Shown in pieces: positions 28,151-37,763 of a stretch of DNA of 64,000 nt; position 1 is the first letter of the stretch; every line of letters begins with the position of its first letter. The stretch spans positions 56,584,181-56,648,180 of the forward strand of contig NC_058340.1 in the NCBI RefSeq assembly GCF_905475395.1, in the 5' to 3' direction. Both the position numbers and the translations under genes were made by a program. This stretch comes from Chrysoperla carnea (Eukaryota > Arthropoda > Insecta > Neuroptera > Chrysopidae). The notes under the pieces are model-generated. The model was given only the letters and a program-made list of their open reading frames with translations, was not told the DNA's origin and did not search any database.

Positions 28151-31100
28151 ATGAGTACGGCACATAATACAAAAATACCAAAATTACATGTTCGTAAAAC
28201 ATATAGAAGAGATACCAGCGAAGTCAGTTGTTGTTTAAAATATATGATATTTGGTTTTAATGTTTTATTTTGGGTAAGACTTCTGTTTTCTTTAAATAAT
28301 TATTAAAAAAACTCTCGTTTTGTTATTTGTTATGGTACCTAGACTAATCGAAGGTCTTTGTAAATAGACAAATTCCTATTATACAATACGAAGGTTAAAT
28401 TGTAAACTACGACTAGTGTCTACTACATTATGATTAAAAAACAAAAATTGTATTTTGAAGTGGTACAAAATTTTGCTTAAAATTACCTTACATGTTGCTA
28501 AAAAAATAGTGTACAGAAATCGAAATTATTAGGTGATAAAAGGCATCAAAAAGTTATGAACTGATATTTCGAGGAATAACATAATATCAAAGTTGAAAGT
28601 ATTGTTTTATTCACTAAAAATGATCTAGTCATTAGTAGTTTCTAGAGTTACATTTTGGAAAAATCGTTTTCAGATATATATTTATAGAGGCTCTGCTCCT
28701 TATTTTGATGAATTGCTTGTTAGAATCAGACAAGGTATGCTCTTTGTGCAGGTAGGCGTAGGATGGGGGAATGCTCTCACTATCGGTAATTTCTCTCACA
28801 CGGTACCCAGCATGGAGGCTATAAAGAAGGAGCACGATCGCTATAGAAAATATTGTCCCCAAAATATGGACAAAATAAGTGAGGCGCTGGGATCGCTAAG
28901 TTGTCTCATTAAAAGCGGGCTGTTGTGCGCTAATTTCAAATGATCTATTAACGTTTAATATACGTGTATATAATATCATTCAAAGGAAAAAAGGTATACC
29001 GAAAAAAAAAAGCAAATAATGAAATTATTATTATTATTTACTAATGAATAAATTATAAATTATCTATTCTACTTTATAAATTTATCTATACTACTTAATA
29101 AATTTGAATGGTACTAACTTCATCTACTTGTACTCATAAACAGCTAACTTCGCAGATACTACTTACCGACTGGTGGCTGAAAAACGAACTATAAATTCTA
29201 CAAATTTTCAGGGACAGCCGGGCTAATCCTTTAGCACGTAGCGATCGTTCTCCTTCTTTATAACCTCCATGGTACCCAGTTACCGCCATATTGTTTGTTT
29301 ACATTCGAACTGTCAAGTACATATTTACTGTCAACAAATATGACATAAGCAATATGGCGGTGACTGGGTACCGTGTGAGAGAGTAAGAAAATGTCCCCAT
29401 CCTACTCCTGCCTTTCATAAGAGCATACCTTGTCTGATTCTACCAAGATGAATTGTTTTTGTGACCCTGCCATGTAGACAGTTTATTATTGTTTTTAAGT
29501 AATTAGAGTTTTGGGAAAAATCATCAGAGGACCTTAAACCACTAGTTATATTCTGTGTTTATTGGTTTTGAATACTATTAGTATACAGTCTTTACTCCAT
29601 TGGTATACAATAATTCCAAACAGTGTTCCAAAGCATATCATAAAATGCAAGCGATATCAAAAATATTGACTTAAAAATCTATTTCCTATCTTTATATAGT
29701 TCTTGTTAGGGAAATTATCAAAACAGATATTGAATATTTAGCAATATTCCAATTGTTATTGGAAACACATATCATGAATTCTACCAGAATATGTGGTATT
29801 TGAATGTTTGCTACGCGATATTTTCGCTTTGAAATTGTGAAATTTTTTTAAAATTTCGATTTAGCACATAAATCAAAACTGCACAGCGAGGGAATTAAAA
29901 AGAAAAAACTGTCCTTATTTGGGAAAAATTATATTCCATATATAATGTAGTAGATTGATTGAAGTTTAAAGTTTGAGTGTCATTAATAAAAAACCGATTA
30001 GTAATGATAAAACATAAGATATTAATAAAATAATAAAACATAGCACCTAGACCAAGGGGTCTTCTGTGCCCTCGTTGAGAACAACCTGTCATCCGAAGAC
30101 GTTTCGTCTCCGGGTAAGAGATGCTATTTTAAGCAGATGAAGCTAGATTATGTTGGGACCAGACGCTACGTAGAAAGTCCACAGTTTCTCCGTTAAGAGT
30201 TCTCCCAGCATGTATGGATCCAAGGTTTCGGACTCAAACAATCTGACGTCGTACAGGTTTCTGGAGGTGCAAATAACATGTATGGAGATTTCATCGTTCT
30301 CCATACAGGCTCTACAAGTGGGATTAACAGAGATTCCCATGTTATGAAGATGGTAGTTCAATTGACAGTGTCCTGCCAAGGGCCTTACCATCCTTCTCAA
30401 CTGTGATCTAGTAAGTTTCAGACGAGCACAGTCGAATGACCTAGCTGTAGTTTTACACAGTTTTACACATTTGTCGCATGTCCTGCGCAAAGTCTCAGTA
30501 ATCAAAATGGGCTTGTCGTAGCCATTCCTTGATTGGTTAAACCGATTGGCAAAAACCTGATTAAGATAAACGTACAGTCGTTCATCTATCCATTTCGTAT
30601 TCTAAAAAATGGACTAATTATATGATAATTGATTATATAGTCTGCTAGAATTATTTTCGAGATTATGAAAATAAGTTGGATATTATTTTTTTCCAGCTAT
30701 TTGGTTTATTCCTCTTAACTGTTGGAATCTGGGCATGGAACGAAAAAGACGCATTCAATAATTTAGGACGAACAACCATCGCTCTTGATCCGGCTTTCAC
30801 ATTAATTTGTGCTGGTAAAGATATTAAATTAGGATTCATATTTCCTCACTTTTATATACAGAATACTAAATTAATTTTTTGTCAAATTTAGGAACTGTTA
30901 CATTTATAATTGGTTTTACGGGCTGCATTGGTGCTTTACGTGAAAATACATGTCTGTTATCGTGTGTTAGTAGAATTTTTTTTGTCTTAATTGCTGTTTA
31001 TAAATTGCGTAATATTGTTCTTCCGAATGATATTTAAATAAAATTTTGCATTTCGCTATTATTACTTATATCATAAATTACGCAATTTGTATACTCACAA

Positions 31101-34100
31101 AAAAATATAAAAAAATTCCTTGACATTTGACAATTTTCTTTACAAAAATAGTGATCAAATATTTTACAGTTTTACGCAATTTATGGTCAGTATTTATGAA
31201 AATATTTTATAATTTAAATAATATTGTTTTTTCTTTTAGTACGCAATATTTTTAACGATAATATTAGCGCTAGAAATGACAGCAGGTGTTTTAGGTTTCA
31301 TTTATAAAGATTGGGTAAGTTGAAAATGTAATTTCTTATATATCCAGCCTTAGTAATTTAATATTCTTTGTGATACTAGTGCAATCAAACTTTAATTCGA
31401 TCTGAACCACACACACCTGCAGGAAAATTTCATGTGGGAAAAGTATATTTTGCGAGACACTCTATTGGCACACTATTAAAATTTTCATTAAAAAAATTAT
31501 AGATTAAATAAATTATAGAGCCAGGCAAGAATTTCCCGTGGAGATGACGTAACGCCAACAATCCTTGCTAGACTAAATAACAACAATCTATAGAAAGGGG
31601 GGTTTACGTACATGTTTTATTGAATGTCTTGGGCGCATACTAAAAAAATTTTATTGCATTAACTTTCAATTATTCCAAAATAACTATGACTAAACGCAAA
31701 TCTTGTCAAACTCTTGTTTTGCGGTGTTAGTGATGACAGCTATTCAAGCAAGCTAGATTTACAATAGAGTTGATAATTTTATCCATTCACTTGTCTATGA
31801 ATTGACAGTGGAATGAAACACAAATATCACGGAGTAACATACAATTTATCGTGTACGATAATGACGAATATATTTTTTTTGTCGCATTCTTCAAGTTGAT
31901 AGGACCCTCGGACCGCGAGGCCGTAGGCGGTCGCTCACACCTTACGCCGAAACTGCATGCCTTCGAAAGTGGCATTTTTTATCATAGTAAAAGTTGTAAG
32001 AAGCCGTTATAACACCGTTGATATCTCTAGAAATTTTAAAGAGTAAAGTTCAAGTAACTTTTTGTGAAAATTAAATAATTTATAAATATTTTTATTATTT
32101 TTAATTATTATGTTTTGTATAATATGTAGATTAAGAATAAAGTGAAAGATGCTGGTATTTTGGAAGCATTCATTGTACATTACAGAGAAGATCCAGATCA
32201 ACAAAATTTAATAGACTGGATTCAAGAAGATTGGGTAATAATATAATTGAATTAATAAACGTATTATAATAAAAATGCAAATCGAAAATTGGAATAAAAA
32301 GCATTGTTTGTTATAAATCTTCTAAAAAGGTTTATTAAAATGAAAAATGTGCAAATTACGCTCTTACTCGTTTGACGAGGTTTTGTACCACATTGTGGAA
32401 AAAGACAGTTGAATTTCAGTTGAAAGTGCATAATTTACTTTTACTAGATCTAAGATTGTACAATTTGATTCCATACTACTTTTTTTCGTTAATGTTTTTG
32501 AAGTCTCAAATCTACAATTCTTAGCCAAAGACTATTCAAGACTTTATATACATAGCTCTGGTCTGCATTTATGTAGCATTTTTACACATTTAAAATGTGT
32601 GCCTACTTATATATTATTTCTTTAGTCTGTTTTCTGCCACTTCGCGAGAGATTCCTCATTCCTTTATCAATTTCCATGATTTATTCCTCATTTTAAAGCT
32701 TATCGTGCTGGCTAACGACGAAAACTAGACACACGTTCAGTATGTAATTTGTATATCATATCTGTAATTTTGTATCACTTATATATTATTGCTATAGCCG
32801 CTTTTTAGCCACCGCCCTGTTGAATTTCACACGGATCGACTAGTTTCAGTAAAATGTAATTAAACTTTCCAACAATGGTTTTATATTCCAAAAATAAATC
32901 TTGCATTTTTATTGTTAGACCCCAAATACAATAGTAACAATGTATTTGTATTTACAGTTACAATGTTGTGGTATTGTAGGCCCAAATGATTGGGACTTGA
33001 ATAATTATTTCAATTGTTCATCACATACAGTTGGTAGTCGAGAAGCATGTGGTGTTCCATTTTCTTGTTGCAAAAGAAAAATTAATGTAAGGTGACATTT
33101 CACAGTTTTTGTTATGTTTTAATAATGAATCTCCTTTTTTAAACTAGGAAATTATCAAAAACAAACAATGCGGATATGATGTACGGAAATCCGGTTATGT
33201 AAGTGTTTATCTGTAATTTACGCGGGTTTTATTATCATAATAATGGGTTTAAATTTTATTGGTAGCTTATATTGAAATACGTACCGCTAAAAATATAAAG
33301 TTTATCTAGCATATTTTCGATGAATGAATCGCATTTAATGCTTTGAGTATGGTTCGCGTTACAAGTAAAATGTTATCAAGGTGGGTTTATAGTATAAAAA
33401 TCGGCCGACGCGTTTGGTCTCGAGTGTGCCACATAGGAACAGACATAGACTGGTAAACGCATTACCACTCATTTGCGTTGATCAAATACGTTAAAAGAGA
33501 GTGGAAGAATATAATTGTGAATCGTTTAGATCAGCGTGGATATTCTTTTGTATAATACCAGTTGCAGTTGAATCTTGGATAATTAAGGAAGTTATTAACC
33601 AATTTTGTGGTATAAAAATTAGTGCATAATTTCTTGGATTCAATATAAGCTATGAATAATCAAATAACTATGCTAAGCAGACATTAATAATACAGCTTCA
33701 AATGATTTAATTTCTGATAGAACCTTTTTATAGAGTAACAGTAAAATAAATGATATATGTGAAAATATCATTAGATATTCGAAAATTTTATTAAGAAAAT
33801 AGTTAAAATCTACAATTTTAATGAATTTGTTTATAAAACAATTATTATTATTAACTGGCAAAGTTCAAGATTTAGATTTAAATTCAATCGCACTGTCATA
33901 AGCAGGGCCGGATTAACAAGTAGGCAGAAAAGGCAGTTGCCTGGGGCCCCCGATTTTAGGGGGCCCCCAAAAAATGAAAAAGACTTCTAAAATTTTCTTA
34001 CAAACATAAAATTCTAGAGAGTGAAAGGAAATATAATCAGAACTGAAAATAAATTTTACTCAAATAAATAAAACTCAATTGGCCGCATTCAAAAGGCGAC

Positions 34101-37100
34101 GACCGACGAACTAGACAAAGTTCCTAAAAAGGACATTTCCGACTACTTTGACAAAACTTATAGTCATTTGTATAAGATTCTAATGGAAGATCAATTAGCC
34201 GATGTATTTCCTAACACAGAAATAGCTCTTCGGATTTTTTTAACATTAATGATCACAAATTGTTCTGCCGAACGATCCTTCTCGCAATTAAAAAAAAATC
34301 AAAGCTGCTGAAAGAGCTACAACGCGACAAGAGCGATTCGAGATGTTAGGTATACTTTGCATTGAGTCAGATTAAGTTTGTATTTTTTAATCGAAAAAAG
34401 AAGGGAACGGGCGTGAAAAAAGGGCCCCCAAATTGATGGTTGCCTAGGGCCCCGTTGAGGATTAATCCGGCCCTGGTCATAAGTGAAAAAACGAATTAAG
34501 AAATTGTAGGCCCGTAGGCAGTTTCGAAAGAAAGAAAGTTTTCGCGCTTTTCTCTTTATAATCTCGCGCCTGTACGCACGTGCCTATTTTGCCTTATGGA
34601 TAATCCGTCTTTGCATAAGTGAAAAACTGAGATTAATGCAAAAATTCATTTTTTCCAAATTTGAATCATGCATGATCTGATTTGTACGTTTCTAGTAATA
34701 GTGTACGATATCATAATATAATTAATGAATCTTTATTTGCTGGTTAATTTGCGCTAATTGTTGATAAACATTTACGCTGTTCATCTCTGTGTAAAATTCT
34801 TAACTAAACTCGGCGCATGTAAATACCGGTTGGTTCTTATAAGTTAGGCTTAAGATATATTAACTAAAATAAAATATTTTGGATTTGTTTACAATATAAA
34901 TGAGAAAAAAATTTATGTGTTCAGTTCAGGCTGATCTACGTTAACTTAAGAGTTGTTTAACTTTAAATACACATATTTTATGTTCAATCCGAATTTGTTT
35001 GAGTTTTGGTTTTGGCACTTTTCTTCTGTGGGCTTCTCGTTTCAGGAATGTCCTTCGCGTTTTTTTAAATCTTATTTCCTTCAAAAACTTATTATATTTT
35101 TACATTCATGCTTTTTTTGTTTATATTGAAAATTCATAAAAAAATTGTAAACATGTCCATTGTATTTGTATGACAGCTCTTGACTTCACTTTAATGAATA
35201 TTTTTTATCAATATAGTAGTTGATTGCAGCAATACGATCTATTTTTACGATTTGAATTTGAGTTACGGAAGAGATTCAAATTTTTTACTGCAGATGTAAT
35301 GTTCCTCATTAACCGTTTATTGAGACTTTCTAGGCCAAGAGGTGGTGCCACATTTCACTCGACGATTTTCTGCTTATGCTTCCGAGAAACTTCTGCAAAA
35401 CTAACCACTTCTAGAATACACATAAACAGCGAAAAGACAAAAAAAATTGACAAAATTTGGCATCAACTAAACCCTTTTGTCACTCATATCTTTCTATATT
35501 CTCGGAGGTATAAGCGTCAAAATTGAGTGAAATCTGTCACCATCTTCCAGTCCATTACAAGAATAAACGGATCGGTGTACTAAAAATAAGCTCGTTATTG
35601 ATCGACAATCAACTACTGATTAATTTGAACTGTTCTAAAAATATTTAGAGTCTGATGTAATTTAATTAATTAATAGTAAATTTTAATGGCTTTTACTAAA
35701 AATATGCATGTATTTCTGGAATAGTCGGGAGAACGAAATATTTTTGAAAAAGGTTGTTTGCGGTCTGTGGAAGATTGGATGGAAACTAATTTGATTTTAC
35801 TTACAAGTGTAATCGTAGGACTGATGGTTCTACAGGTATATATTTATTAGAAAATCAAATAGTGTGTAGTTTATTTGTGAATGATAATTAGCTATTGCAT
35901 GATCCCTTTTTCTAAACAGCACTCAGTAACAACCAAGGGGCGTGCTTATACTTGAAATTATTGGAGACTGCTAACAACTATTTAGTAGGTAAAGTGCATG
36001 TTATATGACTATATCGTCTGATAGTCTTTTAAATCGGGTTCCAGAATTTTGATGTGTCGAAGATCATTAACGAAACTGGTTGTATTCAGGCGTTCCATAA
36101 CTGGCTCGAATATAATTTATTGACAATTGCTTTTATTGTAATTATGACTTTGTTCCTGCAGGTGAGTTCAATTATTTTATTATATACACCATTTATAAAA
36201 AAATATAGGATGCGTTATAATAAATGAATTTAAAAAAATAATAATAATTTTTTACGGCGTATATTCCAACAAAATTTGAATCTTATCTATCTTAAAATTT
36301 CTGGCTCGTTATTTAACTATTTACCAAACATTTCGGCTTGACAACTGTTGCAATGTCGAAAATGTTTAATTGAATCGTAAAACTTCTCAACGATAAATGC
36401 AAAAATTTGGTCCAACCATGGTCTCACATTGGTCTAATAAAATTAAACTACTTCATTTCAATCTTAATTAATTGTGAAATACTTTAATTAATTTATGAAT
36501 TTGCTTATGTCAAATAAATTGCAAGGAATGGTTTTGCCATGACCAATTGTACCTTAAGCAAAAGTGTCTGTTGATTACCATCACTAAAATGAGAATCTTC
36601 ATTGTGACGCATCCGTAATATTTTCCCAAGCCACGAATCAAATTTTCCAAAGTTATTTGATAGGTATAACTTGTGCACAAGAAACATCGTTTTTTTTGAA
36701 ATAGAGAATATGCATGAAGTTCTTTTTCGCATTTCTTAACATATATAGAAATATCGTATCAACAAATTATGAAAATATCGTAAAAGAGATAACAAAAAGT
36801 GAAATTAAAATTAAAATTGACTAGAAATGAATAATAAAGGTGTTCCAACATTTATTGAATAATGAAGTATATATCATTGTGAATGAAATAAGACATCCGT
36901 AAAATGACTGCCTCGGCTTTCTCGACTGGCACAGACGTACTCTTTTCATGAAATTTTCAAGGGCTGTGTTGTATAAATTTTGCGATATTTCAGTGTTACA
37001 TCATTAAATTTTCTTTTTTAAGGCTTCAATCGTTGTGGGTTTATTCACTTGTGGCTTTAAAAAACCACAAAGAAAAAATCCAAAGACGTTAAATTTCATG

Positions 37101-37763
37101 ATTTGGGCAGCCAATGACAATTTCCAAAACGAGAAATAACACGACTAGGAAATAAAATTTCAACCATTTTTATAATCATTCTTCATAATGAGAATTCGTT
37201 GTTGTGTATTGTAGCACTCCATTTTACTTAACTCCCCGCTCTCTACTGACGAACGGCTAATTATTTTTTAATATAAAATGACATGTAATTCAAAACCGGT
37301 GTTGGAACACTCTTTAGAAGCATTAAACTACTAATAAAGGCAGATATTAGCCAGAGAGATCCGGCAGATATTGTGACGTTCTACCATAGCAACTCCATGC
37401 TAAATTCGGTTTTATAGGCTTTTATCTAGGTTATTTTTACAGTTATTCGAAAAATAATTTTTCTTTGTTGTTTTTACATAAATGAGTTTTGATTAAAGAA
37501 AAAAAAAATAACATGCATATTCTCTATTATATTAAAAGTTTCTTATTCACTTGAGAAAGAGGATCAATCATCTATACATTATGGTAATCATTAATCGTTT
37601 ATTGTGATTGAATAAATATCAAATTTTTATAAAGCATGCTTAGTTTTACATTAAAGAAAATATTTTATACAATTTAACAAAATTAAATTTTCAGATACTA
37701 GGAATCTGTTTTGCACAAAACTTACGAGCCGACATATTTGCACAAAAAGCGAAGTGGCATTGA
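28151..37763 (+). CDS. TspanC8-type tetraspanin with two alternative penultimate exons
   Basis: Plasma-membrane or endomembrane four-span protein. Its eight-cysteine large loop puts it in the TspanC8 group, known to escort and regulate the metalloprotease ADAM10/Kuzbanian. Exons: 28151-28273, 30697-30814, 30892-30965, 31240-31314, 32130-32234, 32958-33086, 33148-33198, then 35725-35835 or 36045-36161, then 37695-37763. Phases close with either, giving 284 or 286 aa. The N-terminus (TSEVSCCLKYMIFGFNVLFW) resembles vertebrate TSPAN5/17. TM1 is about residues 30-55, TM2 about 80-102, TM3 about 107-130. The large loop has CCG (168-170), Cys185, Cys196, PFSCC (199-203), QCGY (215-218) and a last Cys from the alternative exon. 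The C-terminus is LGICFAQNLRADIFAQKAKW. Introns hold several mobile-element relics. I cannot say which of the insect TspanC8 genes this is. Confidence 0.94.
28716..29447. mobile_element. Foldback element with 8-bp target duplication and nested palindrome (tetraspanin intron 1)
   Basis: The direct repeat ATGAATTG lies at 28708-28715 and 29448-29455. Between them the ends are inverted: CTTGTTAGAATCAGACAAGG at the left against CTTGGTAGAATCAGACAAGG at the right, and the similarity runs on for about 95 bp (GGTATGCTCTT, GTAGGATGGGG, CTCTCACACGGTACCCAG). An inner arm (28811-28845, CATGGAGG.TATAAAGAAGGA) is inverted at about 29245-29275. Between the inner and outer right arms sits a 99-bp palindrome (29272-29370) with GGTACCCAGTTACCGCCATA inverted. 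The 8-bp duplication fits hAT-type transposition. The open frames over 28632-28943 come from this element. Confidence 0.75.
30050..30600 (-). mobile_element. LINE ORF2 C-terminal fragment (I/Jockey/R1 group) and 3' UTR
   Basis: A minus-strand frame (30505-30143, and in frame upstream to about 30600) encodes the end of a non-LTR retrotransposon polyprotein. Seen are LKLTRSQLRRMVRPLAGHC, LNYHLHNMGI and the zinc-knuckle pattern CRACMENDEISIHVIC (C-x2-C-x8-H-x3-C). This is typical of the tail after the RNase H domain in the I/Jockey/R1 branch. Downstream, the sequence at 30050-30125 resembles 60130-60200 (GAGAACAACCTG, CGGGTAAGAGAT), which may be a shared 3' end. It is a 5'-truncated insertion inside tetraspanin intron 1. 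The exact clade is uncertain. Confidence 0.7.
31895..31965. other. GC-rich island in tetraspanin intron 4
   Basis: About 70 bp (containing GACCGCGAGGCCGTAGGCGG and GCTCACACCTTACGCCG) stands out from the very AT-rich intron around it. No coding homology is recognised and I see no terminal repeats. It is probably a fragment of an unrecognised mobile element. Confidence 0.35.
33903..34475 (+). mobile_element. hAT transposon, internally deleted (tetraspanin intron 7)
   Basis: The inverted ends CAGGGCCGGATTAA are identical at both sides, and the flanks GTCATAAG (33895-33902 and 34476-34483) form a perfect 8-bp target duplication. The inside keeps only the C-terminal part of a hAT transposase: DKTYSHLYKILMEDQLADV, then the dimerisation block EIALRIFLTLMITNCSAERS followed by FSQLK. 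An extra A in the A-run near 34294 shifts the frame before KAAERATTRQERFEMLGILC. Most of the transposase, including the catalytic core, is missing, so it could move only if helped in trans. The perfect ends and target duplication suggest a fairly young insertion. Confidence 0.9.
35725..35835 (+). CDS. Tetraspanin alternative exon 8a
   Basis: A 111-nt phase-0 exon behind acceptor ...GGAATAG and before donor GTATAT. It encodes SGERNIFEKGCLRSVEDWME followed by TNLILLTSVIVGLMVLQ: the end of the large extracellular loop with its final cysteine (residue 236), then most of TM4. It splices in frame between exon 7 (ending KSGY) and exon 9 (starting ILGICFAQN). It is homologous in layout to 8b 209 bp downstream. 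Confidence 0.85.
36045..36161 (+). CDS. Tetraspanin alternative exon 8b
   Basis: A 117-nt phase-0 exon behind acceptor GGTTCCAG and before donor GTGAGT. It encodes NFDVSKIINETGCIQAFHNW followed by LEYNLLTIAFIVIMTLFLQ, again the loop end with the final cysteine (residue 238) and TM4. The pattern GC-x(6-7)-W-x(4)-NL is shared with 8a, while most other residues differ. Including both exons would give a protein with two TM4 segments, so use of one at a time is expected. The segment NET is a possible N-glycosylation site found only here. Confidence 0.88.
36837..37314 (-). mobile_element. Tc1/mariner-type relic, internally deleted (tetraspanin intron 8)
   Basis: Inverted ends AAAGRTGTTCCAACA-like (left AAGGTGTTCCAACA, right AAAGAGTGTTCCAACA on the minus strand) are flanked by TA on both sides. 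On the minus strand the start ECYNTQQRILIMKND resembles the N-terminus of this transposase group. A later block (SLDFFLCGFLKPQVNKPTTI) is the familiar 'TPxDFFLWG' region after the third catalytic residue, followed by FMKRVRLCQSR near the end. The catalytic centre is gone and the rest is split over frames, so it is a dead deletion derivative of 478 bp. Confidence 0.82.

Follow-up and report, generated by a model that had tools for sequence, protein, structure and literature searches.

The window, that is, the whole 64-kb stretch of DNA that was analysed, carries a tetraspanin gene on the forward strand. In our hand-made gene model the coding part extends over 28151–37763 with nine exon positions, and the eighth of these is present twice, as exons 8a and 8b in tandem (Table 1). 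AG/GT is found at every internal border, 8a and 8b are both in phase 0 on each side, and both join exons 7 and 9 in frame. The recomputed end of exon 7 (33198), the borders of 8a and 8b and the start of exon 9 (37695) reproduce the coordinates, lengths and phases given in the preliminary description. The spacer between 8a and 8b measures 209 nt and the introns outside it 2526 and 1533 nt; the shortest introns of the gene are 61 and 77 nt long. The predicted products are 284 residues long with 8a, 286 with 8b, 247 with neither exon and 323 with both, and all of these frames are open.

Table 1. Exons of the tetraspanin gene and candidate regulatory elements around exons 8a and 8b (window coordinates).
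Feature	Position	Strand	Basis
Exon 1, coding part: ATG, N-terminus, start of TM1	28151–28273	+	Hand-made gene model; spliced product matches PF00335
Exon 2: remaining TM1, small loop	30697–30814	+	Gene model
Exon 3: TM2 region	30892–30965	+	Gene model
Exon 4: TM3	31240–31314	+	Gene model
Exon 5: start of large loop	32130–32234	+	Gene model
Exon 6: CCG ... GVPFSCC, loop cysteines 1–6	32958–33086	+	Gene model, cysteine count
Exon 7: loop cysteine 7; phase 0 at end	33148–33198	+	Gene model, cysteine count
Candidate selector upstream of 8a; 11 contiguous pairs with 37511–37521	35701–35711	+	Pairing search
UGCAUG, 20 nt upstream of 8a	35705–35710	+	Motif search; Rbfox site putative
Alternative exon 8a (111 nt, 37 codons): loop end, cysteine 8, TM4	35725–35835	+	Gene model; profile 32.6 bits, rank 1
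UGCAUG, 61 nt downstream of 8a and 149 nt upstream of 8b	35896–35901	+	Motif search
UGCAUG, 50 nt upstream of 8b	35995–36000	+	Motif search
Candidate selector upstream of 8b; 10 contiguous pairs with 37508–37517	35995–36004	+	Pairing search
Alternative exon 8b (117 nt, 39 codons): loop end with NET sequon, cysteine 8, TM4	36045–36161	+	Gene model; profile 27.6 bits, rank 2
Competing arm for candidate docking site	36691–36727	+	Repeat search, duplex energies
UGCAUG, 550 nt downstream of 8b	36711–36716	+	Motif search
Candidate docking site, last intron	37501–37537	+	Repeat search, duplex energies, pairing search
Exon 9: C-terminus and stop	37695–37763	+	Gene model

Both isoforms match the Pfam profile PF00335 (Tetraspanin) over positions 1–221 of 225, with scores of 179.1 bits (8a) and 176.0 bits (8b) against a cut-off of 32.1. 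Four spans are seen as hydropathy peaks, and CCG lies in exon 6. The large loop contains eight cysteines, at residues 168, 169, 185, 196, 202, 203 and 216 together with 236 in the 8a isoform or 238 in the 8b isoform; this number typifies the TspanC8 (PMC12203959). The best solved match of both isoforms is Tspan15 (entry 8esv), with E values of 8e-38 (8a) and 6.7e-35 (8b), and by name the other nine hits of each search are also chains of the tetraspanin family (Tspan7, Tspan10, CD9, CD53, CD81, Tspan15 and uroplakin-complex chains). The cysteine count, CCG and the match to Tspan15 uphold the TspanC8 identity proposed at the outset. The four spans, CCG, GVPFSCC and the eight loop cysteines are common to this gene and the known TspanC8 proteins (mammalian Tspan5, Tspan10, Tspan14, Tspan15, Tspan17 and Tspan33; fly Tsp3A and Tsp86D).

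A TM4 position profile was built from six segments from outside the window, two from solved proteins and four from tetraspanins of the same genome. Scanned in six frames over the whole 64 kb, this profile ranks the two exons at the top. The third-ranked place, antisense to 8b, scores 9.8 bits, and the peaks in 12 Markov-shuffled windows range from 6.2 to 10.5 bits. No third copy of exon 8 was found in this six-frame scan of the window. The pattern GC-x(6–7)-W followed by a complete TM4 had been described for both exons; the motif and the hydrophobic span are present in each (Kyte–Doolittle peaks of 2.61 and 2.63), but the spacing is x6 in both and never x7. The NET sequon is restricted to 8b, as noted before, but a second sequon, NCS at residue 184, is present in both isoforms.

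The alignment of 8a with 8b gives a score of 60, which none of 2000 shuffles reaches (shuffled mean −5.9, sd 7.5), with ten of the 37 aligned residues identical; the 27 differing ones agree with the earlier remark that the amino acids mostly differ. Over a 33-residue core the two exons score 63 against each other, compared with at most 55 (8a) and 47 (8b) against the six outside segments. A duplication inside the gene fits this higher core score, the segments being too short for proof. The core self scores are 166 and 173, so that 63 lies above the 15% default of PMC3923563 if computed alike. The prediction criteria for homologous mutually exclusive exons in the available text of the same source (adjacent, homologous, of similar length, in the same frame and with compatible splice sites) all apply to 8a and 8b. 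Codon positions one, two and three are identical in 14, 24 and 14 of the 37 codons, and the highest agreement at the second position is expected if the hydrophobic pattern has been kept. The exon duplication looks old, because so few residues are common to the two copies. Mean identity of such exon pairs is given as 67% (PMC7954323), and 8a and 8b lie well under this value; relaxed constraint on one copy is therefore possible.

The splice sites of both exons, called good in the preliminary description, look usable, and neither acceptor is outstanding. On a crude consensus count the donor of 8b (CAG/GTGAGT) scores 9 of 9 and that of 8a (CAG/GTATAT), which is without G at +5, scores 7 of 9; the remaining seven donors of the gene reach 5 to 7. 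The pyrimidine fraction of the acceptor is 0.53 for 8a and 0.65 for 8b, and 0.47 to 0.76 for the seven other acceptors. Weakness of the 8a sites was considered as a sign of regulation and dropped, these sites being inside the range of the other exons.

The architecture of the product depends on how many copies of exon 8 are included. Without exon 8 the TM4 peak and cysteine 8 are lost, and the Pfam profile is covered only to position 171 (146.5 bits). With both copies a fifth hydrophobic span and an extra cysteine appear. Eight loop cysteines together with one TM4 are obtained only with exactly one of 8a and 8b; the product with one of the two exons would thus be the sensible one, and selection would favour it. 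There is no mechanical enforcement of this outcome: double and zero inclusion both stay in frame, and the spacer, which is longer than the two shortest introns of the gene, should not block splicing of both exons. A regulator is therefore expected. We consider it probable, at about 0.8 on the evidence of the genomic sequence, that 8a and 8b are two alternatively used exons in one TspanC8 gene. An old tandem duplication of a single exon would have left the homologous and frame-compatible pair, and each mRNA would use one of the two.

Other fates of the pair can be weighed on the same features. The low identity between the copies (10/37) and the 8a donor without G at +5 would also suit a gene in which only one of them is used, the other being a silent or rarely used relic of the duplication. 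However, both exons are open, both have retained AG/GT, phase, GC-x6-W and a strongly hydrophobic span, and both stand far above chance, whereas a relic of such age should have lost several of these features; the 8a splice sites are also within the range of the other exons, and we regard a relic as quite improbable. Routine inclusion of both exons would give a five-span protein. Its frame is open over 323 residues, and at 181.9 bits in two stretches the double form is still a tetraspanin by score and is not penalised by Pfam; the fifth hydrophobic span and the further cysteine, together with a C-terminus that would be placed outside the cell, nevertheless make it scarcely credible. Read-through of 8a or 8b into its intron would turn the exon into an alternative last exon without exon 9, and the frames do end soon, with 8a adding VYIY before the stop, but each of the two exons has a donor in phase with exon 9, which makes this outcome highly improbable.

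In the introns flanking 8a and 8b the hexamer UGCAUG stands out. It occurs 12 times on the forward strand of the 64 kb, and five of these copies lie in the three introns around 8a and 8b, one at 34669 and the others as listed in Table 1. Enrichment was calculated for the 8a–8b spacer plus 100 nt before 8a (299 hexamer positions), with the stretch after 8b left out. Among the hexamers present twice or more in this region UGCAUG is the most enriched, with three copies against 0.056 expected; the Poisson P is 2.8e-5 uncorrected and about 0.12 when corrected for 4096 hexamers. The motif was examined only after catching the eye in the repeat search; of 1201 hexamers with comparable abundance, 45 likewise have three copies within 295 nt at some place in the window. 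Within 100 nt of the exon borders it is found in three of the four flanks of 8a and 8b versus none of the 16 flanks of the other eight exons; two of these 16 flanks are not intronic and some overlap a neighbouring exon owing to short introns. None of 5000 shuffles placed a copy within 60 nt upstream of both exons. Given the corrected P of about 0.12, the weight of the signal rests on the previously known splicing role of UGCAUG.

UGCAUG is recognised by RBFOX proteins, which in C. elegans select between the mutually exclusive exons of egl-15 and of unc-32 (PMC3585155). These genes likewise have two adjacent alternative exons with UGCAUG in the flanking introns. Their control has been demonstrated with mutants, reporters and binding (PMC3585155), whereas the present gene belongs to another protein family and offers the motif only. 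In the genome of Chrysoperla carnea, Rbfox-like RRM pieces lie on contig C1 near 111.79 and 111.80 Mb, 11 kb apart and on one strand. They are 92% (residues 1–24) and 74% (residues 40–73) identical to the RRM query; the best-scoring of the six RRM matches is another gene, 44% identical to that query. The Fox-1_C domain (PF12414) gave no match in the genome search. Rbfox acts by position, an upstream site repressing and a downstream site activating the exon. By this rule, the copies at 35896 and 35995 should favour 8a or repress 8b, and the copy at 35705 should repress 8a. We give Rbfox control of the 8a/8b choice about an even chance; the choice would then be steered mainly by Rbfox at the UGCAUG copies beside both exons, perhaps helped by upstream elements that pair with a site in the last intron.

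Insect exon clusters such as Dscam1 are governed by a docking/selector mechanism, and a search for such elements had been proposed for this locus. It yielded a moderate candidate, while whole-intron duplexes and local folds turned out ordinary. The segment 37508–37521 in the last intron can pair before both exons; with the pairing statistic taken at its maximum over that entire intron, 3 of 400 shuffles do equally well. As in Dscam1-type clusters, one intronic site is able to pair before each alternative exon; in contrast to them, the stems are short, there are only two exons and the pairing is predicted from one sequence. The first entry in the repeat list of this region is a 37-nt inverted repeat, 36691–36727/37501–37537, which is 78% complementary with 773 nt between its arms. 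Parts of 37501–37537 also pair with the element before 8b in the repeat search, and the element before 8a is similar to the 36707 arm. The duplexes of 37501–37537 have energies of −25.6 kcal/mol with 36691–36727 (0 of 300 chance pairs as stable), −19.7 kcal/mol with the element before 8b (0 of 300), −14.1 kcal/mol with that before 8a (8 of 300) and −8.1 kcal/mol with 35885–35910 (50 of 300), statistics that are biased upward because the arms had already been picked from the repeat search. In the four whole-intron duplex tests, 29, 16, 21 and 34 of 40 shuffles were as good, and local folding was equalled by 23 of 60 and 36 of 60 shuffles.

These pairings could be taken to mean that the choice is made chiefly by competing RNA structures, with the docking site at 37508–37521 and selectors before 8a and 8b, and not by an RNA-binding protein. 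The contiguous stems of 11 and 10 pairs with a single site and the three most stable duplexes speak for this. The paired cores, however, are UGCAUG and its near-palindrome, so the pairing and motif signals are not independent; the third UGCAUG copy, at 35896, pairs poorly, and the whole-intron tests are not significant. We find it doubtful that pairing is the chief determinant. Base pairing is a lead, weaker than the UGCAUG motif, and the flanks point to Rbfox at least as much as to docking/selector pairing.

Neither homologous exon pairs nor Rbfox control is new by itself, both being well known; the novelty lies in the gene and in the part that is swapped. Judged by titles and abstract openings, we found no publication on such an exon pair in a tetraspanin, and an existing database annotation is quite possible. 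Presumably the gene resembles fly Tsp26A, which we take to be a TspanC8. Fly Tsp26A, also an insect tetraspanin and under neural splicing control, is alternatively spliced in eMIC-minus brains and listed with Notch-pathway genes, the exon concerned being unstated in the available text (PMC8797185); this could correspond to the 8a/8b choice or be a different event. Like eMIC exons, exon 8a carries a UGC close to its 3′ site (PMC8797185). An eMIC-dependent exon was nonetheless rejected on size, with exons of 111 and 117 nt and introns of 2526 and 1533 nt here versus the very short exons and short introns of that class (PMC8797185). Splice variants of TSPAN5, TSPAN14 and TSPAN17 are mentioned in PMC2650405, in whose available text no homologous exon pair is named.

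Searching the genome with PF00335 produced 32 matches on the exon level with E values no higher than 0.01. Nine other tetraspanin loci were scanned for TM4; six have one segment, three have none above 11 bits and none has two, in a scan that is incomplete, as a known segment of locus L036 was missed. Locus L033 (G000:C1:4637000-4643500) reads as a second TspanC8, with eight cysteines counted by eye. It has a single TM4 segment, unlike the present gene with its two alternative exons for the loop end and TM4. In L033 the TM4 reading frame continues without the intron that precedes exon 9 in the studied gene. No intronless (mRNA-derived) copies are among the 22 genome places matched by isoform 8a. 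Scans of viral and prokaryotic collections with exons 5–7 (95 residues), which are silent on insects, gave 12 pattern matches in viral_contigs and 31 in genome_contigs, and no relative was confirmed among them.

The predicted swap would alter the stretch preceding cysteine 8, the helix that follows it, an N-glycan site (8b only) and TM4 as far as the border with exon 9, and TM1–3, seven loop cysteines and the C-terminus would remain constant. The two tetraspanin forms might thus differ in partner binding or trafficking, and the likeliest partner would be ADAM10/Kuzbanian. TspanC8 proteins set the location and substrate preference of ADAM10, for which mammals use six genes (PMC12203959). Noy et al. 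found with CD9 chimeras that the large loop of Tspan14 is both required and enough for binding ADAM10, whereas the variable region of this loop is required but not enough by itself (PMC4751363). In the fly, Tsp86D and Tsp3A are described as promoters of Kuzbanian trafficking (PMC6361131). The available texts of PMC8761850 and PMC13045381 give no loop contacts.

Since exon 8 provides no more of the loop than its end, together with TM4, an effect on ADAM10 is plausible as one option among others; changes in stability, in trafficking, or in packing with lipids and partners would suit the swap equally well. That the exon swap alters the handling of ADAM10/Kuzbanian is a tentative proposal, somewhat short of even odds. 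It is more speculative still, and in our view unlikely, that an Rbfox-steered swap lets Rbfox-rich tissue (nerve or muscle) build ADAM10/Kuzbanian complexes with another loop end, glycan and TM4, and so changes the substrates shed, Notch included. If true, one TspanC8 gene would act as two, with a splicing switch on a sheddase specificity that in mammals comes from six genes. Such an isoform pair would link a splicing factor with Notch-type shedding, and isoforms that differ in nothing but the loop end and TM4 would allow the role of that part of the protein to be tested cleanly in vivo.

Intron 7 of the gene contains a 0.58-kb repeat (33900–34480), presumably hAT-like, with 19-nt inverted ends that are 89% complementary. 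The 40 scored copies out of 181 candidates in the genome, the window copy included, are 98–100% identical, so the repeat has probably moved recently. The stretch before 8a (35000–35720) was rejected as a mobile element; besides itself it has only three short partial matches. In intron 1, on the reverse strand, a 152-codon antisense frame (30143–30601) gives the impression of a non-LTR retrotransposon protein tail.
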